A DNA stretch of 64,000 nucleotides, from NCBI RefSeq assembly GCF_900100765.1, contig NZ_FNFO01000002.1, forward strand, positions 186,001 to 250,000, given 5' to 3'. A program made the translations under genes and the position numbers. The notes beneath the pieces were generated by a model. That model saw only the letters and a list, made by a program, of their open reading frames with translations. It did not search any database and was not told where the DNA came from. Shown here in pieces: positions 11,333 to 63,732 of this stretch (positions are counted from its first letter, which is position 1; the number at the start of each line of letters is the position of its first letter). The DNA is from Catalinimonas alkaloidigena. GTDB lineage: Bacteria > Bacteroidota > Bacteroidia > Cytophagales > Flexibacteraceae.

Positions 11333-11764
11333 ATGATGAAAATGATACTCTCCCTCGATACCCACGTTTCAGCGTCGCGCAAGCTGCTGTGGGCCGCGCC
11401 CCTGGCGGGTGTCGTGGCGGCCGTCCTGAACGGGATGCTCTTTTCGGTCGCCTCGTTTCTAGCCTGGATTCCCGCCGATTTTCTGATGCCGACCACCGGC
11501 GAAGCCTTCGGGCTCGGGCCGGTCATGGTGTCTTCGTTTTTGCCTTCGCTGGGCGCAGGTCTGGTGCTGGCGCTGCTCTCGCGTTTTTCCGAGCGCCCCT
11601 TGTTTGTTTTTTCCGTGCTGGCGGGCGGCGTGCTGGCCGGGTCGTTCATCAGTCCGCTGGGCATCGGTGCCCCCGTGCGGATGATCGCCGTGTTGGAAGT
11701 CATGCATGTGCTGGCCGCCGTCACCATCGTGGGGGGCCTGCGCTATGCCCTCACGCACCGGTGA
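11333..11764 (+). CDS. Small four-helix membrane protein (DUF6069-like)
   Basis: A 143-residue protein with about four hydrophobic segments: near residues 20-45, 60-80, 88-108 and 118-137. It resembles proteins annotated as DUF6069, whose function is unknown; that assignment is by pattern only. It follows the TetR gene by 51 nt and has its own copy of the TetR dyad, so it is the likely regulated target, perhaps with a detoxification or permeability role. Start is ATG 11333 or the adjacent ATG 11336. Confidence 0.75.
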   Translation: MMKMILSLDTHVSASRKLLWAAPLAGVVAAVLNGMLFSVASFLAWIPADFLMPTTGEAFGLGPVMVSSFLPSLGAGLVLALLSRFSERPLFVFSVLAGGVLAGSFISPLGIGAPVRMIAVLEVMHVLAAVTIVGGLRYALTHR

Positions 11765-12095
11765 GCGGTGAGCAGTGAGCAGTACGAAGGGCGAAATCTG
11801 AGTGTGAAGAGTGGGCTGCCGTCCGACGGCTGGAGGTAGGCTAGTCGAGGCCGTCGGTCGGCTGACAAAAGCATGAAGTGTGAGGTGTGAAGGGCGAAGT
11901 ACAAGAAACGCACACCTCTGAATTCATAACTCTGCACTCATCACTCTCAACTCGCAATCTTTTCACTCCACATCACTACGGTGAGGGGAGGCGGTCGGCG
12001 TTGTTCGTGGGACTGGACGACGTGCAGATCGCCTCCTTTTTTGTAAAGTGCGCAGATTTGTTGTACACTTAGGGATTTGATGCATTCGGCCACAC
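11765..12095. other. Intergenic region holding a repeat arm, no gene seen
   Basis: A 331-base gap. Most of it is the left arm of an inverted repeat (11781-11946). A weak promoter-like pair (TTTTTTG near 12037 and TACACTTAG near 12063) precedes the sigma factor gene. No coding sequence is convincing. Confidence 0.5.
11781..11946 (+). repeat. Left arm of long inverted repeat around the ECF sigma gene
   Basis: About 166 bases that match, in reverse complement, 12734-12908 with only scattered differences and one small indel. Shared words include GTACGAAGGGCGAAATCTGA, GAAGGGCGAAGTACAAGAAA and ATAACTCTGCACTCATCACT. The arms also carry GTCCGACGGCTGGAGG units that recur near 23440. Confidence 0.85.
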
Positions 12096-12686
12096 ATGAG
12101 TAACCCTACCGACGAGGCTAAGCTATGGGACCAGTTTCGAAACGGCGACAACACCGCTTATGAAACGATGTACCATCGGTACGTCGAGGAGCTCTATTCG
12201 TACGGACTGCGGTTCGCCGCCCACGACCCGGAACTGGTCCTCGACTGCATCCAGGATCTGTTTGTGTACCTCTGGCAGCGTCGCGATCACCTGGGGCCCA
12301 CCGGTTCCATCAAATATTACTTGTTCAAAGCCCTGCGCCGTCGGCTGGACCGTCGTTTGCACCGACCGCTGTCGTTTGCTTTTTTCGGAGCCTTGCAAGC
12401 CGGTCACGAACTGAAATTATCGCTCTCGCACGAAGCCGAACAGGTCGCGCATGAGTGGGAGGAGGACCACACCCGGCAGTTGATGACGGAGATCGAGCGG
12501 CTGCCTTCCGACCAGAAAGAGGCGGTGATGTTGCGGTATTTCGAAGAACTGACGCCGCAGGAAATCGCGGACGTGCTCGCCGTTAGTCCCCGGACGGTGT
12601 ATCGTCTGCTGGACCGCGCGGTGGAGTCGCTGCGCAACTATTTTTTGCTGGAGCTGATGCTCTTCCTGGGCCTGCAATTGCTGTAA
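12096..12686 (+). CDS. ECF RNA polymerase sigma factor, FecI type
   Basis: A 196-residue extracytoplasmic-function sigma factor. Region 2 (about residues 20-90) includes DCIQDLFVYLWQRRD, and region 4 (about 130-185) includes LPSDQKEAVMLRYFEELTPQEIADVLAVSPRTVYRLL. It has an unusually hydrophobic C-terminus (LLELMLFLGLQLL). The FecR-like anti-sigma and a SusC with signalling domain follow, so it most likely activates the downstream glycan-uptake operon when SusC is occupied. The gene lies between two inverted repeat arms and is 340 nt from fecR rather than overlapping it. Confidence 0.92.
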   Translation: MSNPTDEAKLWDQFRNGDNTAYETMYHRYVEELYSYGLRFAAHDPELVLDCIQDLFVYLWQRRDHLGPTGSIKYYLFKALRRRLDRRLHRPLSFAFFGALQAGHELKLSLSHEAEQVAHEWEEDHTRQLMTEIERLPSDQKEAVMLRYFEELTPQEIADVLAVSPRTVYRLLDRAVESLRNYFLLELMLFLGLQLL

Positions 12687-13026
12687 ACGTTCCGGGGAAA
12701 ATCGTTGGTTGCGAGGGAGGAGTTTAGAGGTAGGAGTGATGAGTGCAGAGTTATGAATTCAGAGGTGTGCAGCGCTGCGTTTCTTGTACTTCGCCCTTCA
12801 CACCTCACACTTCATACCTTTATCAGCCGTCGGACGGCCTCGACTAGCCCACCTCCAGCCGTCGGACAGCAGCCCACACTTCGCACTTCAGATTTCGCCC
12901 TTCGTACTTCTCACCTCCCACTGGGCTCGCTGCGCTTTCGCTAAATTTTTTAGAAAATTTTTGCCGCTACCTGTCACAAATCCAGAAGGCGTGTGTGTAG
13001 AGAGATGACAAGCACACAAGGCGGCC
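12687..13026. other. Intergenic region holding a repeat arm, no gene seen
   Basis: A 340-base gap between sigma and fecR genes. It is dominated by the right inverted-repeat arm (12734-12908), then an AT-rich stretch (12935-12965) that may contain the fecR promoter. No gene is supported. Confidence 0.5.
12734..12908 (-). repeat. Right arm of long inverted repeat around the ECF sigma gene
   Basis: Reverse-complement partner of 11781-11946, about 175 bases. It carries an extra AGCGCT near 12781 relative to the left arm. Neither arm contains a transposase or obvious terminal target duplication that I could identify. Confidence 0.85.
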
Positions 13027-14025
13027 ATGGATTACCAGCATTACACTTTCAAAGAACTGATCGAAGACGAGCGTTTCCGCGCCTGGGTATTTGCTCCCGA
13101 CGAAACGTCGTCGCGCTTTTGGGAGTCGTGGTTGCGGGAGTACCCCGACAAGCAGCGGGAAGTAGAAGCGGCCCGCGCTTTTCTGCAGATGCGCGCGCAA
13201 AACCGGGCTACGCTCTCCAAAGCCCAGATCGACCAGACATTGGCGAACATCAACCGCGCGCGTTTCGAGACACCCGTGGTGCCGATGCGTCCTGCGGGTC
13301 GGTTTGCCGCCGTGCGGTGGGTGGCCGCGGCGGCCGTGGTGCTGCTGATGTCCGTCTTCGCCTACGTCTACTTCTTCAACCAATACGCCACCTTCTCGAC
13401 CGGCAACGGCGAGCAACTGGCCCTGTCCCTGCCCGACGGGTCGCAGGTGATTTTGAATGCCAATTCTGAGTTGCGCTATCCGCACCGCTGGGAAGGGCAA
13501 CGCGATGTCTACCTGGAAGGGGAGGCCTACTTCGCGGTGCAGAAACTGCACGCCGACACGGGGATGGTCAAGCTGGTGGTGCATACCGCCGACCTGGACG
13601 TGGAGGTGCTGGGCACGCGCTTCAACGTGGCGACTCGCCAGCAGCAGACGCAGGTGATGCTGGAAGAAGGGAAGGTGCGCATCGCCGCCGACGGGCAGCA
13701 GGTGTACATGCAACCCGGCGAGCTGGTGGAATACACCGGGCCGGCGCAACTGGTGAAGCGCGAGGCAAATCCGCGCCTCTACACCGCCTGGAAAGATCAG
13801 GAGCTGATTCTGGAGAACCGTACCATGCAGGAGGTCGCCACCATTCTGGAAGAGACCTATGGGCTGAGTATCCACATTCCCGATACCTCGGTAGCCAACC
13901 TGCGGCTTTACGGCAGTGTGAACATGGACAACGCCGACGCCATTCTTCAGGCCCTGGCCCTTTCGTACCAACTGGACATTGTGCGCGATCAGGACGAGGT
14001 CTCGATTCGCAAAAAAACAGAGTAA
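13027..14025 (+). CDS. FecR family anti-sigma / signal transduction protein
   Basis: A 332-residue FecR protein. A cytosolic N-terminal part is followed by one membrane helix (about residues 97-118, AAAVVLLMSVFAYVYFF). The FecR domain lies at about residues 130-230 (GEQLALSLPDGSQVILNANS, YLEGEAYFAV, VLGTRFNV). A C-terminal DUF4974/secretin-like domain follows (about residues 255-330, MQEVATILEETYGLSI). It holds the ECF sigma factor inactive and relays a signal from the N-terminal domain of the SusC transporter. SusC starts 172 nt downstream. The ATG is followed by a standard FecR N-terminus. Confidence 0.93.
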   Translation: MDYQHYTFKELIEDERFRAWVFAPDETSSRFWESWLREYPDKQREVEAARAFLQMRAQNRATLSKAQIDQTLANINRARFETPVVPMRPAGRFAAVRWVAAAAVVLLMSVFAYVYFFNQYATFSTGNGEQLALSLPDGSQVILNANSELRYPHRWEGQRDVYLEGEAYFAVQKLHADTGMVKLVVHTADLDVEVLGTRFNVATRQQQTQVMLEEGKVRIAADGQQVYMQPGELVEYTGPAQLVKREANPRLYTAWKDQELILENRTMQEVATILEETYGLSIHIPDTSVANLRLYGSVNMDNADAILQALALSYQLDIVRDQDEVSIRKKTE

Positions 14026-14197
14026 GCAGAAGCGCAGCACTTGAACGAGCGGCGGTAAAGGCCCCGTCTCCCTGGAGCGTACCGGGCTTTATTCCGGGTG
14101 CCTGAGAACGCCTACCCCGGAGCGCTGCATGCGCCGCCGGCCACTATAGCAACCTATTCCTATCAGTATAAAAACCTACAACTCAAACACCCACACC

Positions 14198-17100
14198 ATG
14201 CACACATCTACCCGTCGCTGCCTGGGCACGGTCGGCTTCCTGCTCGCGTTGTACCTGGAGCCCGTAGGCGCTTCCGCACAGAGCGTGGTTTCGATGCAAC
14301 GACTTACCCAGCGAGAGCCGGCCGCCCGCCAGGAGGCCGCCTCCCCACAGCAAGCCAAACGCTCCCTCGCCGATGTGCTCACGGAACTCAAATCGGATTA
14401 CGGGGTGTACTTTATGCTCTCCGACGATTTCTCGGGCCAACGTGTTACCCTGCATCGTCCCTACCAGGGAAGCCTGGATGAGCAACTGAGCAAGATTCAG
14501 CAACAGACCGGCCTGCAGGTGCGCCAGCTCGACGAGCGCAATTTCCTGCTGTTCCGGCCGCTGGAGAACGACGCCCGTCCGACCAAAATGCCCCAGCCGC
14601 TGGTCGTACCGGCACCTTCGCCGGCGCTGGTCACCCTGCAACGCATTCCGCAGGTTTTGCTGGATCAGCGGATCGTCGGGCAAATTACTGACGCCAGTGG
14701 CGAAGGCATTCCCGGGGTGAACATCCTGGAAAAAGGCACCAGCAACGGCACCATTACCGACGTGGAAGGGCGCTACACCCTTTCGGTGAGCGACAACGCG
14801 ACGCTTGTCATTTCGGCCGTCGGCTACCTCGCGCAGGAGGTGGAAGTGGGCAACCAGACCACCATCGACGTAACGCTGGAAGAAGACATCAAGTCGCTGA
14901 ACGAGGTGGTTGTGATTGGCTACGGGGCGCAGAAGCGCGAATCCGTCACCGGCTCCATCGCCAGCATTCAAAGCAAAGACATCGACCGGGTACACGCCTC
15001 GACGGTCAGTGCCACCCTGGCCGGGAAAATTCCGGGCGTTTCGTTTCGGCAGGCGGAAGGTCGGCCGGGATCGGGAGCGCTGGTGCAGGTCCGCAACATG
15101 GGCGATCCGCTGTTTGTAATCGACGGCATCCAGAAAGACGCCGGGCAGTTCAACAACCTGTCGCCGAACGACATCGAAAGCATCACGGTCCTGAAAGACG
15201 CCTCAGCGTCGGTCTACGGGTCGCGGGCCGCCAACGGGGTTGTGATCGTCACGACCAAAAAAGGCAAAACCGGCGAGAAGCCGACCATCAACATCGACAG
15301 TTACTACGGCTGGCAGAACTGGACGCGCTTTCCGCGTGGGGTCGATGCCTACTCCTGGATGGTGGGCAAGGCCGACGCCGAAGTGAACCAGACGGGCAAC
15401 ACGGTGATTACGGCCGAAGAGCTGCAAAAGTGGCAGCAGGGCACCGAGCTCGGCTACCGCAGTTTCGACTGGTACGACTTCATCGTCGGGAAAAATGCGC
15501 CACAGTATTCGCTGAACGCGAACGTGTCGGGCGGCTCGGAAAAGACCAACTATTACCTGTCGGTCACGCACCTGAACCAGGACGCCGTGCTGAAAGGCTA
15601 CAACTTCAACCGGACCAACATTCAGTCGAACATCGACACCCGCATTGCCGAGCGCCTGAAAGTCGGGGTGCAGATCAACGGACGGATCGAGTCGCGTAAA
15701 AACCCCGGCGTGCCCGGCGGCGACGACTACTGGGCGCCGCGCTTTGCCCTGTTCCGCAACCGCCCGACCGAGCGGCCCTACGCCAACGACAATCCCCTCT
15801 ATCCGAACGACATCGGGCACAACGCCGAAAACTGGGCCATCCTGAACTACGACATCTCCGGGTACAATTACAATGACTGGCGCGTGTTGCAGACCAACTT
15901 CAACGCCGAGTACGAACTGCCGATCAAGGGGCTGACCGCCCGCGGCATGTACTCCTACTACCTGGCCGATAACCTGGCGAACATCCACGAATACACCTAC
16001 GACGTCTACACCTACGATCCCAACACCGACACCTACAACATTACGGGCGGCAGCAGCAACCCGTACCGGCTCCGCGAAAGCCGGAAGGTGCTCGAAAGCG
16101 TGGGGCAGTTGCAACTGAACTACAACAACTCGTTCGGCAAGCACACCGTAGGCGGAACCTTTGTATACGAACGCATCCAGCGGCGCGACCTCTACACGCG
16201 GCAGCACGCCGTGCCGTCGACCAACGTACTGCCTGTGCTTCAGTTCTCCGAAATGGACGCTCAGGACTTTGTGGACAGCGACTACCAGGAAGCCCGGATC
16301 GGTTACGTCGGACGGGTGACCTACAATTTCGCCGACAAGTATTTCCTGGAGCTGGCCGGTCGGCGCGATGCCTCCTGGAAGTTTGCACCCGGTCGCCGCT
16401 GGGGCTTCTTTCCCTCTGTTTCGGCGGGTTGGCGGATCAGCGAAGAAGAGTTTTTCCAGAACATGCTGGGCGGCAGCACCGTGCTGAACGACCTGAAACT
16501 GCGGGCCTCGTACGGAAAGCTGGGTGACGACAACATCAACATGGGCATCGACGTGAACGATCCGCGTTACCTGGATCCGTTCGCCTACATCTCGGGGTAT
16601 ACCTACCCGGTTTCGACCACTCGGCCGGTGATTCTGGACGGTATTACCGTGCTGGCCGCCCGCGACCGGGGGGTGCCGATTACGAACCTCTCCTGGTTTA
16701 CGAGCAACCTGACCGACATCGGGCTGGACTTCACGCTGCTGAACGGACGCCTGTCGGGCGCAGTAGACGGCTTCTACCGGAAACGGACCGGCCTGCGTGG
16801 CAGCAAGTACGACATCCTGCTGCCGTCGGAACTGGGCTACTCGCTGCCGGAAGAAAACGTGAGCAGCGACGCACAAATGGGCGGAGACGGCAACCTGGCG
16901 TACCAAGGGCAGATTCGTGGAGTTGAGTTTACGGTCGGGGGCAACCTGGGCTACTCGCGCAGCCGCTTTCTGCAATCGTACAAGCCGCAGTTCGGCAACT
17001 CCTGGGACCACTACCGCTACTCGATCGAAGATCGCTGGAACGACATTCTGTGGGGCTACGAGGTGATCGGGCAGTTCCAGTCGCAGGAGGAAGTCAACAG

Positions 17101-17767
17101 TTATCCCATCAACGTCGACGGACAGGGCAACCGCACGCTGCTGCCGGGCGACTTCATTTACCGTGACGTAAACGACGACGGGGTCATCAACAGTTATGAC
17201 CAACGTCCCATCGGCTACCGCCGGGGCGGCACGCCCATCATCAGCTACGGGGCCAACTTCTCGTTCCGCTGGAAAGGCTTCGACCTGACGGCCGACTTCT
17301 CGGGTGGTTCCATGTACACTTACAACCAGAACTGGGAGATGCGCTGGCCCTACCAGAACACCGGCAACCTGCTGGCCAACATGTACGACGACCGCTGGCA
17401 CCGGGCCGATCCGCTTGACCCGAACAGTGCGTGGATTCCCGGCAAAAACCCGCCGCTTCGCTTCAACGACGGTAACCACAGCAACTACCGCCGCGACGAA
17501 CTGAACGGCAACGGCACTTCGACCGACTGGTGGGCCGTGAACGTACGCTACCTGCGCCTGCGCACCCTGGAGCTGGGCTATTCGCTGCCGCGCCTGCTGA
17601 CCGAAAAGGTGAAAGTGAACCGCGCGCGGGTTTACATTAACACCTACAACCTGCTGTCGGTCGACAATGTGAAGCAGTTCGGCATTGATCCGGAAATCGA
17701 GAACGACAACGGCCTGCAATACCCGCAGAACCGTCTGGTGAACCTGGGCGTCAACCTTTCTTTCTAA
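14198..17767 (+). CDS. SusC/RagA TonB-linked outer-membrane transporter with STN signalling domain
   Basis: A 1189-residue SusC protein. After the signal peptide, residues about 50-125 form a secretin/TonB N-terminal (STN) domain (RSLADVLTELKSDYGVYFML, QQTGLQVRQLDERNFLLF). This domain is found in transporters that signal to FecR/FecI pairs. A carboxypeptidase-D regulatory-like domain follows at about residues 165-235 (VGQITDASGEGIPGVNI), then TonB box/plug (NEVVVIGYGAQKRES, PLFVIDGIQ, VLKDASASVYGSRAANGVVI) and a beta-barrel ending in a typical aromatic terminus (VNLSF). It imports oligosaccharides captured by the SusD partner encoded 20 nt downstream. The upstream sigma and FecR genes complete a transport-coupled regulatory loop. 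Confidence 0.96.
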   Translation: MHTSTRRCLGTVGFLLALYLEPVGASAQSVVSMQRLTQREPAARQEAASPQQAKRSLADVLTELKSDYGVYFMLSDDFSGQRVTLHRPYQGSLDEQLSKIQQQTGLQVRQLDERNFLLFRPLENDARPTKMPQPLVVPAPSPALVTLQRIPQVLLDQRIVGQITDASGEGIPGVNILEKGTSNGTITDVEGRYTLSVSDNATLVISAVGYLAQEVEVGNQTTIDVTLEEDIKSLNEVVVIGYGAQKRESVTGSIASIQSKDIDRVHASTVSATLAGKIPGVSFRQAEGRPGSGALVQVRNMGDPLFVIDGIQKDAGQFNNLSPNDIESITVLKDASASVYGSRAANGVVIVTTKKGKTGEKPTINIDSYYGWQNWTRFPRGVDAYSWMVGKADAEVNQTGNTVITAEELQKWQQGTELGYRSFDWYDFIVGKNAPQYSLNANVSGGSEKTNYYLSVTHLNQDAVLKGYNFNRTNIQSNIDTRIAERLKVGVQINGRIESRKNPGVPGGDDYWAPRFALFRNRPTERPYANDNPLYPNDIGHNAENWAILNYDISGYNYNDWRVLQTNFNAEYELPIKGLTARGMYSYYLADNLANIHEYTYDVYTYDPNTDTYNITGGSSNPYRLRESRKVLESVGQLQLNYNNSFGKHTVGGTFVYERIQRRDLYTRQHAVPSTNVLPVLQFSEMDAQDFVDSDYQEARIGYVGRVTYNFADKYFLELAGRRDASWKFAPGRRWGFFPSVSAGWRISEEEFFQNMLGGSTVLNDLKLRASYGKLGDDNINMGIDVNDPRYLDPFAYISGYTYPVSTTRPVILDGITVLAARDRGVPITNLSWFTSNLTDIGLDFTLLNGRLSGAVDGFYRKRTGLRGSKYDILLPSELGYSLPEENVSSDAQMGGDGNLAYQGQIRGVEFTVGGNLGYSRSRFLQSYKPQFGNSWDHYRYSIEDRWNDILWGYEVIGQFQSQEEVNSYPINVDGQGNRTLLPGDFIYRDVNDDGVINSYDQRPIGYRRGGTPIISYGANFSFRWKGFDLTADFSGGSMYTYNQNWEMRWPYQNTGNLLANMYDDRWHRADPLDPNSAWIPGKNPPLRFNDGNHSNYRRDELNGNGTSTDWWAVNVRYLRLRTLELGYSLPRLLTEKVKVNRARVYINTYNLLSVDNVKQFGIDPEIENDNGLQYPQNRLVNLGVNLSF

Positions 17768-17787
17768 TTACCGAAGCGAAATCCACC

Positions 17788-19644
17788 ATGAAACGATATA
17801 CCCTGACCTTACTCGCGTTCCTGGCCGTCACCACGGCCTGCAACGACGAAGACTTCCTGAACCGGGAGCCGACCAACATCCTGCTGAACGACCAGATTTT
17901 CGAGGACGAGCGCCTGGTGGTATCGGTCCTGGCCGACCTCTACGACCGCTACCCCGACCTGCAGAGCGTCAGCTCCTGGTGGGAGTTTGTGAACTACGAC
18001 GACGCCTTCGGCTCGTTTGTGGCCGACTACTGGCGCGACCAGCACCTCGACTTCGACTACAACTGGTGGAACTACTGGGACTACGCCTACATTCGCGAGA
18101 TCAACCTGTTCATCGAACGGTGCGATGCTTCGACTGGCCTCAGCGACGAAGCCAAAGAGCGGTTTCTGGGCGAAGGACGTTTCTTGCGGGCGGCCATCTA
18201 CTTCGAACTGACGAAGCGCATGGGCGGCGTGCCGCTCATCACCGAGTCGATGGTGTACGACTTCAGTGGCGACCCCAGCTACCTGCAATTTCCCCGGGCG
18301 AAAGAGCACGAGGTGTACGACTTTGTGATCAGTGAACTGGAAGCCGTCAAGGACGTGCTGCCCGACGACCCGAGCATCAAATCCCGCGCTACCCGGGGGC
18401 TGGCGCTGGCGCTCGAAGCCCGCGCCGCCCTCTACGCCGGTTCCATCGCCAAGTACGGACAGACCACCCCGCAAGTCGCGCTGCCGGGCGAAGAAGTGGG
18501 CATTCCGGCCTCCCGCGCACAGGAGTACTACGAGATCGCCCTCCGTTCGGCCGAAGCGGTCAGCGGCTACTCGCTCTACCAGAAGGACGCGAACCTCTCG
18601 CAGAACTTCACCAACCTGTTTCTGGACAAGAGCAACCCGGAGGTGATTTTTGTAGAAGACTACAAGCTGAAAAGCGGCAAAACGCACGACTTTACGGTGC
18701 TGAACCAGCCGCTGTCCCTGTCGGAAGAAGGCGCTAACCTGGGCGGCCGGTTCAATCCTTCGCTGAATCTGGTGCAGTCGTTCGAGTTACTCGACAACAC
18801 GTACGCACCCTTCGCCACGACCGACGCCGGGGGCAATCCGATCTACTACGACAACCAGGAGGACATTTTCCAGGGACGCGACGCCCGCCTGGCAGGAACC
18901 GTGATCTATCCGGGCGGCACCTTCCGGGGCGAGAAAGTCGACATCTGGGCCGGGTTGCTGCTGAGCAACGGCACCAAAGTAACGGCCGACGCACCGGGTG
19001 CCCTCCGGGATGTGGAAGGAACGCAGGTGAAGGTGGTTGGCGACGACGGACCGATCAACAACTACGAGGGCACTGCCCAGACCGGCTTCCTGATCCGCAA
19101 GTTTCTGGACCCCACGCCCGGCGCGGGGCAGATCGGGACGCAGAGCGCGGTCTGGTGGATCAGGTTCCGCTACGCAGAGGTCCTTCTCAACGCCGCCGAA
19201 GCCGCCTTTGAATTGGGGCAGGCAGACAAAGCGGTCGGGTACCTGAATCAGGTACGTGCCCGCGCCGGCCTCACCACGCCGCTGACAGCCGCCGACATGA
19301 CGTTCGACCGCATCGTGCACGAGCGGCAGGTCGAGCTGGCCTTCGAAGATCACCGCCTGTGGGATTTGCGGCGCTGGCGACTGGCCCACAAAGTATGGGA
19401 CGGCTCGACCCAGCTACCCGACGACATCGGCAAAGCCGACGAGCCCAGTGCGATGGTGTACGGCCTGTGGCCTTACAAAGTCTACAACCCCGGCGGCTCG
19501 AACGATGGCAAGTGGGTGTACGAAGTGGTGAAACCCGATCCGGTGCGCAGCGCCCACCGGTTCCGCCTCGGGAACTACTACTCGAGCATCGACAACAACA
19601 TCATCAACAACAACCCGAAAATTGTCCGGAACCCCAATCAGTAG
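17788..19644 (+). CDS. SusD/RagB family nutrient-binding outer-membrane lipoprotein
   Basis: A 618-residue SusD-like lipoprotein with lipobox VTTAC at residues 14-18 (MKRYTLTLLAFLAVTTAC). It shows the usual N-terminal words (NDEDFLNREPTN), TPR-like helices, and the C-terminal SusD motif (RYAEVLLNAAEAAFELGQ, VHERQVELAFEDHRLWDLRRW). It forms the lid over SusC and binds the glycan at the cell surface. It immediately follows susC and precedes a DUF3823 lipoprotein, the usual surface-binding trio. Confidence 0.96.
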   Translation: MKRYTLTLLAFLAVTTACNDEDFLNREPTNILLNDQIFEDERLVVSVLADLYDRYPDLQSVSSWWEFVNYDDAFGSFVADYWRDQHLDFDYNWWNYWDYAYIREINLFIERCDASTGLSDEAKERFLGEGRFLRAAIYFELTKRMGGVPLITESMVYDFSGDPSYLQFPRAKEHEVYDFVISELEAVKDVLPDDPSIKSRATRGLALALEARAALYAGSIAKYGQTTPQVALPGEEVGIPASRAQEYYEIALRSAEAVSGYSLYQKDANLSQNFTNLFLDKSNPEVIFVEDYKLKSGKTHDFTVLNQPLSLSEEGANLGGRFNPSLNLVQSFELLDNTYAPFATTDAGGNPIYYDNQEDIFQGRDARLAGTVIYPGGTFRGEKVDIWAGLLLSNGTKVTADAPGALRDVEGTQVKVVGDDGPINNYEGTAQTGFLIRKFLDPTPGAGQIGTQSAVWWIRFRYAEVLLNAAEAAFELGQADKAVGYLNQVRARAGLTTPLTAADMTFDRIVHERQVELAFEDHRLWDLRRWRLAHKVWDGSTQLPDDIGKADEPSAMVYGLWPYKVYNPGGSNDGKWVYEVVKPDPVRSAHRFRLGNYYSSIDNNIINNNPKIVRNPNQ

Positions 19645-23421: not shown

Positions 23422-23580
23422 CACGCTTGATGCCAGAACGGCCTCCAGTCGTCGGACGGTTGGAAGGCGATCTGTAACTCCGTCCGACGGCTAGTGCCTC
23501 TGCGCAAGCGCGAAGCAGTCGTCGGAAGGCTGCGCAACCTTTCAAGTTCCAGCCCTCCGACGCCAACCTGCCATCTGGGG
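23422..23580. repeat. Dispersed GTCGGACGG-type repeat cluster
   Basis: Between the GH2 and DUF4965 genes lie several direct and inverted copies of CCGTCGGACGG-like words (GGCCTCCAGTCGTCGGACGG near 23441, CTCCGTCCGACGGCTAG near 23477, CAGTCGTCGGAAGG near 23516). The same words occur in both arms around the ECF sigma gene, so this is a family of dispersed intergenic repeats. Confidence 0.6.
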
Positions 23581-31873: not shown

Positions 31874-31899
31874 CCTCTTCCTTGTCATAAGAACCTCTA

Positions 31900-31987
31900 T
31901 TTTGTCATTTCGACCTACGGGAGAAATCTAGTAACATCAAAGCCAGAAGATCTCTCCTAACGTCGAGCCGGGTCGCCGGGCGATGAC
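31900..31987 (+). repeat. Dispersed TTTTGTCATTTCGA repeat, copy 1
   Basis: Begins TTTTGTCATTTCGACC, includes GAGAAATCT and AGATCTCTC, and ends GGGTCGCCGGGCGATGAC. A diverged copy with the same order of words lies at 41470-41573. The ends are roughly inverted (GTCATTTCG against CGGGCGATGAC), as in repeats common in Bacteroidota intergenic regions. Confidence 0.75.
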
Positions 31988-41383: not shown

Positions 41384-41469
41384 ATCAGAGGTTGAAAGTT
41401 GCAGGTCGAAGGTGGCAGGCCACAGCCGATTCGAAGGGCAGAGGCGAGTCACGGGTTATAAGCACACCA

Positions 41470-41573
41470 TTTTGTCATTTCGAACAGCGTGAGAACTCCT
41501 CCGAGTTTTGGAACGAGATCTCTGACGATGGTCAAGTCGGGTCGCCGGGGCCCCCTTGGCAACGGGCGATGAC
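41470..41573 (+). repeat. Dispersed TTTTGTCATTTCGA repeat, copy 2
   Basis: Shares TTTTGTCATTTCGA, GAGATCTCT, GGGTCGCCGGG and GGGCGATGAC in the same order with 31900-31987. It lies between the DUF2723 and DUF3098 genes. Shortly after it (41600-41625) is a degenerate CACTCATT/ATTCATTC tract related to the tandem repeat at 47759. Confidence 0.75.
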
Positions 41574-47036: not shown

Positions 47037-47768
47037 ATGAGAAAGTCAATCTTTGCCACGTTACTCGTGCTGTTCTTTTGGGGGGCCGTCCGGGCACAGC
47101 AGGATCTGGTGCCTAACCCTGGTTTCGAGGAAGTAACGGCCTGTCCGCGAGCCATCAGCCAGCTGGAGTTAGCCACTCCCTGGCGAGGCATCGGTCCCAA
47201 CCAGGCCGACGCCGACTTGTTTCATTTCTGCGGGAAGAAAGGCCTGCGAGTGCCGCGTAATTTTGCTGGCGAAGCGTGGCCCCGCACCGGCGAAGCCTAC
47301 GCGGGCATTTTCGTGGGGTATCCGCAGCGCCCCGAGTACCGGGAATTTATCCAGGTCCGGCTGACCGCACCGTTGGCGGCGGGGCGCACGTACGTAGCCG
47401 TGATGCACGTCAGTCGCGCCGATTACCGTTCTCTGGCCGTAGCGGGGTTGGGCATGCTGTTCACGCACGACACCGTGCGGGTCGGCATGGGGAACTGGAT
47501 GGACTTCCGACCGCAGGTCAGCAGCCCACCCGATGAGCTTCTGGACGAAGCCGAAGGGTGGGTGAAAGTGATGGGGCAGTTTGTAGCCGAAGGGGGAGAG
47601 CAAACGCTGACGATCGGACTGTTTACGCCGAATGGACCATTAAAAAGCCAGTCTGTACCGGCGCCGCGCCGCGCCCCCCGCCGCGTACGCAAGGCCCTGC
47701 CGCTCGCTTACTATTACATTGACGACGTGTCGGTCTATCCCGAACAGCGTATCCTCCTGAGTGAATGA
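47037..47768 (+). CDS. Secreted protein with NPGFEE-type N-terminal domain, function unknown
   Basis: A 243-residue secreted protein with signal peptide (MRKSIFATLLVLFFWGAVRAQ). The mature start DLVPNPGFEEVTACP and the end AYYYIDDVSVYPE match a beta-sandwich module, galactose-binding-like, seen at the N-terminus of many Bacteroidota surface proteins, often before an OmpA domain. Here no OmpA domain follows. A basic Pro/Arg stretch (PAPRRAPRRVRKALP) interrupts the last strands and is atypical. The stop codon lies inside a 10-copy 8-bp tandem repeat. The ATG at 47037 is used because the leader begins there. Confidence 0.72.
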   Translation: MRKSIFATLLVLFFWGAVRAQQDLVPNPGFEEVTACPRAISQLELATPWRGIGPNQADADLFHFCGKKGLRVPRNFAGEAWPRTGEAYAGIFVGYPQRPEYREFIQVRLTAPLAAGRTYVAVMHVSRADYRSLAVAGLGMLFTHDTVRVGMGNWMDFRPQVSSPPDELLDEAEGWVKVMGQFVAEGGEQTLTIGLFTPNGPLKSQSVPAPRRAPRRVRKALPLAYYYIDDVSVYPEQRILLSE

Positions 47769-47838
47769 GTGAATGAGTGAATGAGTGAATGAGTGAATGA
47801 GTGAATGAGTGAATGAGTGAATGAGTGAATGAGTGAAT
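47759..47838 (+). repeat. Tandem repeat, ten copies of GAGTGAAT
   Basis: Eighty bases made of ten perfect 8-bp units with no interruption. The first units encode the last residues and TGA stop of the preceding gene. It is followed by a second direct repeat, TAACGCTTCACTCGT at 47882-47896 and 47902-47916 (20-bp period). Confidence 0.95.
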
Positions 47839-47919
47839 GGAAGACGTCGCTACCCTTAGGATACGGGGCCTCGTCTCTTTTTAACGCTTCACTCGTCTTT
47901 ATAACGCTTCACTCGTTTT

Positions 47920-63162: not shown

Positions 63163-63732
63163 GTGTCATCTCCGCGGGAAGAAAACGTACTGCCGCTGAT
63201 TCAGGGTTGTATCGACCAGGATCGGAATAGCCAGCGCATGCTGTACCAACACTTTTACAGCTATGCGATGAGCATCTGTATGCGCTATGCACCGAACCGG
63301 GAAGATGCGCTGGAGATTCTGAACGACGGCTTTATGAAGATCTTCACGAAAATCGACAAGCGGTACGATACCAGCCGGTCGTTTGCCGGATGGCTGCGTC
63401 GTATCATGATCAATACCGCCCTGGACTACTACCGGAAGCAGGCTCGGCAGCCCCACGAAGAAGAGTTGCAGCAGGCCGCGGCCGTCTCGCTCGACGGCGA
63501 TCAGCTGGCGCAATTGCAGTACGAAGAGTTGGTCGACATGGTCCAGAAACTCACACCCGCCTACCGGACGGTGTTCAACTTGTACGCCATCGATGGCTTT
63601 AATCACGAAGAAATAGCGGCGATGCTGCACATCTCGGTCGGGACGTCAAAATCGAACCTGGCGAAGGCCCGCGTCAAATTGCAGCATATGTTGGAGAAGC
63701 ATTACAACCATGAAAGAATCAGGTCCACCTGA
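63163..63732 (+). CDS. ECF RNA polymerase sigma factor
   Basis: A 189-residue ECF sigma factor. Region 2 (about residues 25-95) shows MRYAPNREDALEILNDGFMK, and region 4 (about 125-180) shows LTPAYRTVFNLYAIDGFNHEEIAAML with SVGTSKSNLAKARVKL. This is the type often paired with a membrane anti-sigma factor and OmpA/porin-type proteins in Bacteroidota. The start is GTG at 63163; no earlier ATG fits and the next would cut into region 2. Its 3' end overlaps the next gene by 23 nt. Confidence 0.92.
   Translation: MSSPREENVLPLIQGCIDQDRNSQRMLYQHFYSYAMSICMRYAPNREDALEILNDGFMKIFTKIDKRYDTSRSFAGWLRRIMINTALDYYRKQARQPHEEELQQAAAVSLDGDQLAQLQYEELVDMVQKLTPAYRTVFNLYAIDGFNHEEIAAMLHISVGTSKSNLAKARVKLQHMLEKHYNHERIRST

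Follow-up and report, generated by a model that had tools for sequence, protein, structure and literature searches.

In the window that we analyzed, a stretch of 64,000 nucleotides from Catalinimonas alkaloidigena (contig NZ_FNFO01000002.1, here C2), a single ECF sigma factor gene lies between two long mirrored stretches of DNA, upstream of the fecR, susC and susD genes of a PUL. This arrangement raises the question of whether the arms are part of a switch that turns the sigma gene around, the ends of a mobile element, regulatory sequences, an error of assembly or repeated intergenic DNA.

A strict local alignment of the left arm with the reverse complement of the right arm contained 162 identical columns out of 181, with 10 mismatches and 9 gap columns (8+1), and the identity across the 172 ungapped columns was 94%. 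The alignment score was 275, against a maximum of 27 among 200 mononucleotide shuffles. These results bear out the initial annotation in its description of two long, near-identical mirrored arms that enclose exactly one gene, a FecI-type sigma gene located upstream of fecR-susC-susD. The outer coordinates given there (11781-12908) have to be moved slightly outward, the ends in the strict alignment being 11775 and 12914 (Table 1). A looser alignment widens the similarity to 11763-11980 and 12703-12928, and a repeat finder also picked up pieces of both arms. The arms are separated by 787 bases, and the entire segment including the arms is placed at C2:197775-198914. The genome is a draft in 38 contigs and inverted repeats can cause misassembly, which makes it conceivable that the inverted copy is a misjoin. 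However, 10 substitutions and two indels separate the two arms, and their outer flanks continue into the DUF6069 gene on one side and fecR on the other, so we regard an assembly artefact as highly improbable.

Table 1. Features of the sigma gene locus, and a separate occurrence of its hairpin words, in positions of the window.
Feature	Position	Strand	Basis and remarks
Left arm of the inverted repeat	11775..11946	+	172 nt; strict local alignment with the reverse complement of the right arm
GTCCGACGGC...GGCCGTCGGTCGGC hairpin block, left arm	11815..11864	+	Sequence; predicted stem; related words elsewhere in the genome
Hairpin followed by a T-run, between left arm and sigma gene	11977..12045	+	RNA fold -37.4 kcal/mol, z -4.5
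Probable sigma promoter block (TTTG, 20 nt, TACACTTA)	12034..12076	+	Paralog comparison, motif scan; inside the flippable segment
ECF (FecI-type) sigma factor gene, 196 aa	12096..12686	+	Pfam Sigma70_r4_2, Sigma70_r2, Sigma70_ECF
Right arm of the inverted repeat	12734..12914	-	181 nt; in the sigma-fecR spacer
Same GTCCGACGGC...GGCCGTCGGTCGGC hairpin block, right arm	12824..12872	-	Sequence; predicted stem
Conserved block upstream of fecR (AT-rich element, then CTGTCACAAA)	12936..12983	+	Common to the paralog spacer; outside the arms
fecR (anti-sigma factor)	13027..14025	+	Pfam PF04773, PF16344
susC-like TonB-dependent receptor gene of the PUL	14198..17767	+	Pfam PF07715, PF13715; 62% identical relatives in G014 and G033
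Separate occurrence of hairpin words	23442..23492		18-base (one mismatch) and 13-base matches to the left arm

The genes around the arms are those of an ordinary Bacteroidota ECF sigma/FecR/SusCD regulatory unit. The sigma protein matched PF08281 (57.3 bits), PF04542 (27.5 bits) and PF07638 (37.3 bits), all above the cut-off, and fecR, susC and, 3' of susC, susD (PF07980) follow downstream on the same strand. Several glycoside hydrolase genes are also present on this side, and a tetR gene and a DUF6069 gene are located to the left of the arms. Among 80 sigma loci of relatives, FecR was present 3' of the sigma gene and on the same strand in 59, at a median gap of 114 bases (range 0-1277); in the other 21 it was not found 3' of the sigma gene, in some cases because of contig ends. 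The right end of the window contains a second ECF sigma gene (63163-63732).

The nearest paralogous sigma gene, judged by DNA, is located on contig C9 (locus L213) and has its own FecR in the same order; the protein identity to this pair is 57% for sigma and 58% for FecR. The paralogous sigma-fecR spacer of 130 bases lacks the arm, with a match of only 10 bases, against a spacer of 340 bases in the window, a difference due mostly to the right arm. We also compared related PULs in two other genomes (G014 and G033), whose SusC and SusD are 62-63% identical to those of the window and in which sigma and fecR occupy the same places in the same orientation. No inverted repeats were listed in the 18-kb stretches containing these PULs. 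Their spacers, of roughly 240-290 bases and AT-rich by eye, aligned to the arm with scores of 16-22, within the range of chance (shuffles reached 27). The sigma and FecR proteins of these PULs are only 30-39% identical to those of the window, and between G014 and G033 the identities are 36% for sigma and 40% for FecR. The co-located sigma ranks second of 17 hits in G014 and seventh of 24 in G033, and the correspondence of the sigma genes would rest on position and order rather than on established orthology. When the three related PULs are taken together (L266, L267 and window positions 12096-19644), SusC/SusD are 62-70% identical and sigma/FecR only 30-40%, so the regulator pair appears either to diverge much faster than SusC/SusD or to be replaced.

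On these alignments, the arms are shown to be missing from the nearest paralogous pair and from the two related PULs, and a block conserved upstream of fecR is shown to lie outside the segment that could flip. Because the paralog and the two related PULs have no arms, the repeat would have been added around a resident sigma gene, which is then not cargo. This bears on the other proposal of the initial annotation, a cargo-carrying non-autonomous mobile element with the arms as its ends and the sigma gene as its cargo, and the arms do resemble long terminal inverted repeats round one gene. Instead of the several copies expected of a transposon or MITE, however, there are two arms only, with no third copy of the full arm in the genome at E up to 0.001, and the whole between-arm segment is present in single copy: three further matches (67-72%) cover only parts of it, the best of them extending over a paralogous sigma gene. 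Moreover, sigma, enclosed by the arms, has diverged from the paralogous pair to the same extent as FecR, which is encoded outside them, and no target-site duplication was seen by eye at the outer arm ends (11767-11774 and 12915-12922). The copy number, the equal divergence and the arm-less related PULs led us to reject a cargo transposon, which we consider very unlikely.

Read by eye from its outer end inward, the left arm is composed of a purine-rich degenerate 7-base array, the hairpin block, a second purine-rich array and a pyrimidine-rich array (CACCTCTGAATTCATAACTCTGCACTC), and the right arm mirrors this order of modules. A whole-genome search with the left arm and its flank, as had been suggested along with the initial annotation, produced six matches at E up to 0.001, namely both arms plus four fragments that are 37-58 bases long. 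At this threshold the complete composite arm was recovered only here, twice, with no third copy elsewhere in the genome. The four pieces sit in other spacers made of similar words, and because they recur there the arms can be described as made of intergenic words of this genome. Related words had also been noted at 23422-23580. This similarity is real but small, as it consists of only two pieces of the hairpin words, 18 and 13 bases long, with scores of 31 and 26; none of 500 shuffles reached 31.

Next to the arms themselves, we screened spacers for arrays. These spacers were derived from greedy longest-ORF picks that include wrong-strand ORFs in places (for example over fecR), so their limits are approximate in the array, autocorrelation and repeat-sharing counts, and strand labels were not used there. 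Arrays with a 7-base period were present in 11 of 1011 sampled spacers and in none of 1011 Markov-resampled ones, five of the 11 coming from regions fetched because of hits. For other periods, the numbers of spacers were nine (period 14), five (period 8, with one among the resampled), four (period 4), three (period 15) and two each (periods 9 and 12), with none for 5, 6, 10, 11 and 13. Both sigma spacers are below the threshold for 7-base arrays and have stretches of 26-41 bases in common with spacers above it. Pooled over all spacers, the lag-7 autocorrelation contained no clear signal, and in the relatives' loci, coding DNA included, 7-base arrays were present in 4 of 80, not above other periods (1 to 5 of 80). 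The over-represented 9-base spacer words, in a count that includes the arm spacers, belong mostly to another dispersed family of the TGTCATCTCGA type. Other repeats are also present: an 8-base tandem array (TGAGTGAA) at window positions 47758-47846 and at C13:47726-47833, with an identical stretch of 71 bases on both contigs, and a dispersed intergenic repeat (TTTGTCATTTCGACC...GAGAAATCT) at window positions 31899-31928 and 41469-41498, with several close copies at C7:189787-198633.

Of the 66 sigma loci listed for the genome itself, 30 were inspected, and one of these, the locus in question, has an inverted repeat of at least 30 bases. Among the 80 relatives' sigma loci, four (L016, L023, L041 and L045) have an inverted repeat somewhere in the stretch, and that of L023, from a Cytophagales metagenome genome, is an inverted 7-base array of a different word in the sigma-fecR spacer. 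The L023 repeat (1491-1778) is made of GGAGACC/GGTCTCC words, with arms at 1491-1559 and 1702-1778. The arm sequence itself was matched in 2 of 59 relatives, one being the genome itself and the other G006, where the match is a heptamer array of 58 bases, and in 1 of 291 genomes of the order, again the own genome, in a search at E up to 1e-6 in which part of the first-pass candidates were scored.

The hairpins in the arms might suggest that these were kept for regulation, with hairpin-rich spacers serving as terminators or insulators that make the sigma gene a separate transcription unit. The inverted 7-base array in the L023 spacer and the fold of the right-arm region 12700-12849, which outperforms shuffled sequences (z -1.98, with 5 of 200 shuffles reaching its level), are in line with this idea. 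The other three of the four stretches folded were no better than shuffles (z 0.18, -0.31 and 0.18); the 150-nt folds around the hairpin blocks, taken as wholes, gave z 0.18. The rarity of such arms among the genome's own sigma loci also argues against a regulatory role, as does a separate, strong terminator-like hairpin that already precedes the sigma gene. The latter was picked by eye and its fold was compared with 300 mononucleotide shuffles; it was absent from a terminator scan restricted to loops of 3-8. Together with the T-run that follows it, this predicted hairpin is probably the terminator of the upstream tetR-DUF6069 genes. We judge a regulatory function of the arms to be improbable. 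A structured RNA was rejected as well: there was no Rfam match up to E 0.1, and only one of the four folded stretches was clearly better than shuffles.

Could the segment invert? The two arms share two exact runs of 37 nt, and with runs of this length a RecA-type exchange is plausible, given the minimum lengths for such exchange. The statement that the arms could permit homologous recombination thus holds as a capacity, and a RecA-type flip of the segment between them is possible. The distribution of the mismatches is of interest in this respect. Of the 172 ungapped columns, the outer 98 contain all 10 mismatches, which leaves the inner 74 free of them; with random placement, a clean run of this length has a P of 0.03. 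The 8-base indel is situated within this inner part. The clustering may be a trace of conversion between the arms, or merely the result of two modules of different age. On the other side, no PF00589 (tyrosine recombinase) or PF00239 (resolvase) match was found within 100 kb on the contig; the nearest are at C2:316779 (about 118 kb away) and C2:373690 (about 175 kb), respectively. A linked recombinase is common, although not obligatory, at site-specific invertons. In the parts of PMC5903667 available to us, the repeats of invertible sites are typically 10-20 nt in length, far shorter than the arms described here, and in those of PMC5903667 and PMC12632263 they are flipped by site-specific recombinases.

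The paralog comparison shows which parts of the locus are old and where the fecR block sits, and hence what an inversion could do. None of 1000 shuffles aligned as well as the block upstream of fecR does with the paralog spacer. For the sigma gene, a T-run and the nine bases GTACACTTA are present in the paralog too, at a near-equal distance from the sigma start, and 81 of 1000 shuffles were as good. The match to the promoter motif has two mismatches and is weak alone; there are two such hits between the left arm and the start, against a background of about 1.5 hits per kb of strand in the window. It is likely, though not firmly shown, that the sigma promoter lies inside the flippable segment. 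In this one-paralog comparison, the block that bears on fecR is thus outside (0/1000) and the block that bears on sigma inside (81/1000, weak). The flippable segment holds the hairpin with its T-run, the probable sigma promoter block and the sigma gene, all of which would turn together. Both genes would probably retain their own promoters after an inversion. Since sigma factors act in trans, the simplest expectation is then little change in expression. Read-through effects of an inversion are possible.

For these reasons, the proposal of the initial annotation that inversion switches PUL expression finds no support: the fecR block stays outside, the probable sigma promoter would flip with its gene and the product acts in trans. 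As an explanation of the locus, an invertible cassette would mean that the sigma gene is flipped by RecA-dependent recombination of the two arms, with the result that PUL expression varies between cells. Arms of 172 and 181 bases with 94% identity and two exact 37-base runs around a spacer of 787 bases are what such a cassette would use, the mismatch-free inner half may mean past exchange, and, in the text of PMC12632263 available to us, Bacteroidales DNA inversions act on surface genes and SusCD orthologs. However, the arms still differ by their 10 substitutions and two indels, the recombinase matches are distant, neither gene would be likely to lose its promoter, and sigma and fecR are oriented relative to each other as in the 59 relatives' loci mentioned above; we consider this explanation unlikely. 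Still less credence can be given to the stronger form, in which the arms recombine at a useful rate and a fraction of cells has the sigma gene pointing away from fecR, resulting in heterogeneous PUL induction. If it were true, the flipped sigma gene would lose read-through into fecR, read-through from tetR-DUF6069 would run antisense to sigma, and the sigma:anti-sigma ratio would change; the switch would be one of homologous recombination acting on a sigma gene and not on a promoter.

To see how unusual the repeat is, each 20-kb tile was searched with blastn against its own reverse complement (E up to 1e-8, at least 50 bases) over 1.6 Mb and a further 0.8 Mb, together 2.4 Mb of the 7.1-Mb genome. 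This sample is non-random, as C13, C7 and three short pieces were chosen for hits and C2 as the contig of the window. The scan listed 20 rows (11 + 9): 11 palindromes that overlap themselves and 9 spaced pairs. At 241 bits, the sigma pair scores by far the highest in the 2.4 Mb, the next spaced pair, with a 7.5-kb spacer, reaching 104 bits; one weaker spaced pair, on C4, is longer than the sigma pair (250 columns at 65.6%, 57 bits). A second, weaker heptamer-rich pair surrounds a single ORF on C13 (170372-170447 and 171496-171572; 77 columns, 84%). The ORF inside the arms at C13:170256-171740 encodes 299 aa and is hydrolase-like by eye, and a third copy of the words is located at C13:173866-174163. 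At C1:201949-202835, inverted arms of 73 bases (78%) surround an ORF of 144 aa, and their words differ by eye from those of the sigma repeat.

We also counted repeats shared between spacers. Neighbouring spacer pairs shared a repeat in 22 of 2967 cases and other pairs in 207 of 507,588, an 18-fold excess stemming largely from regions fetched for hits; the 22 cases, 15 direct and 7 inverted, form 11 clusters. On contigs not chosen in this way, the figures are 2 of 1911 and 52 of 207,070. The pooled excess would place the sigma pair among the products of a local process. Since sharing between neighbours is weak in these unchosen contigs, the copying mechanism proposed below is one that we infer rather than demonstrate, and since the sigma repeat stands far above the rest of the sample, few examples support the view that it is one case of a general local process.

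Taken together, we think that the locus is probably an inverted copy of an intergenic repeat mosaic around an ordinary resident sigma gene and contains no dedicated switch. At the outset, an ordinary ECF sigma gene would have been resident upstream of fecR and susCD. About 175 bases of repeat mosaic, consisting of degenerate 7-base arrays and the hairpin block, would then have been added to both sigma spacers in inverted orientation. One arm may have been copied from the other and inverted, either through gene conversion between the two facing repeats or through a template switch in the course of replication or repair. RecA-type exchange may flip the segment now and then, in keeping with the 74 mismatch-free inner aligned bases with their 8-base indel, and such an occasional inversion would have little effect if each gene keeps its promoter and sigma acts in trans. 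The mismatch clustering can be read as leaving room for active exchange between the arms, which is a point against the reading of a copy. If the copy reading is right, a look-alike of a phase switch, with one regulator between long mirrored arms, can arise from the copying of intergenic repeat DNA; if, instead, the inversion is real, the locus would represent a switch in which general recombination acts on a sigma factor.

Compared with known systems, the locus has the gene order of FecI-FecR type ECF sigma/anti-sigma control of SusCD loci (sigma, fecR, susC and susD on one strand), and differs in its sigma-fecR spacer of 340 bases, against 130 in the paralog and a median of 114 in relatives. 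As in Bacteroidales invertons, inverted repeats surround a segment beside a carbohydrate-use locus. In contrast to these, as described in the accessible parts of the sources, the arms here are about 175 nt long, the nearest tyrosine recombinase and resolvase matches are more than 100 kb away on the contig, and the probable promoter would travel with its gene. PMC12632263, PMC5903667, PMC13114119 and PMC10994844 treat invertible promoters, larger segments and within-gene inversions, as far as their available text goes, and in the papers that our searches for invertible or inverted-repeat-flanked ECF sigma genes turned up, titles and partial abstracts name no sigma switch based on general recombination.

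The short hairpin words scattered in spacers are likewise a property of REP-like palindromes and MITEs, whereas the arm described here is present in two copies only and no target-site duplication was seen by eye. The genome contains four Y1_Tnp (PF01797) matches, and the hairpin word is absent from all four of these loci (about 3.2 kb each). A multi-copy MITE/REP family was therefore rejected, there being no third full arm and no hairpin word at the Y1_Tnp loci. The available part of PMC4679880 describes TAACTGA heptamer repeats, which are intergenic and occur in Beggiatoaceae, Cyanobacteria and five Bacteroidetes; they repeat a single word in direct orientation and, in the genome at the centre of that work, mostly sit a short way before start codons. 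Insofar as they are described there, these repeats resemble the arms in their intergenic position and in a 7-base period, which in the two sigma spacers themselves is below the threshold used here. The arms differ from them in being built of degenerate words, first purine- and then pyrimidine-rich, with a hairpin block, and in forming an inverted pair round a gene.
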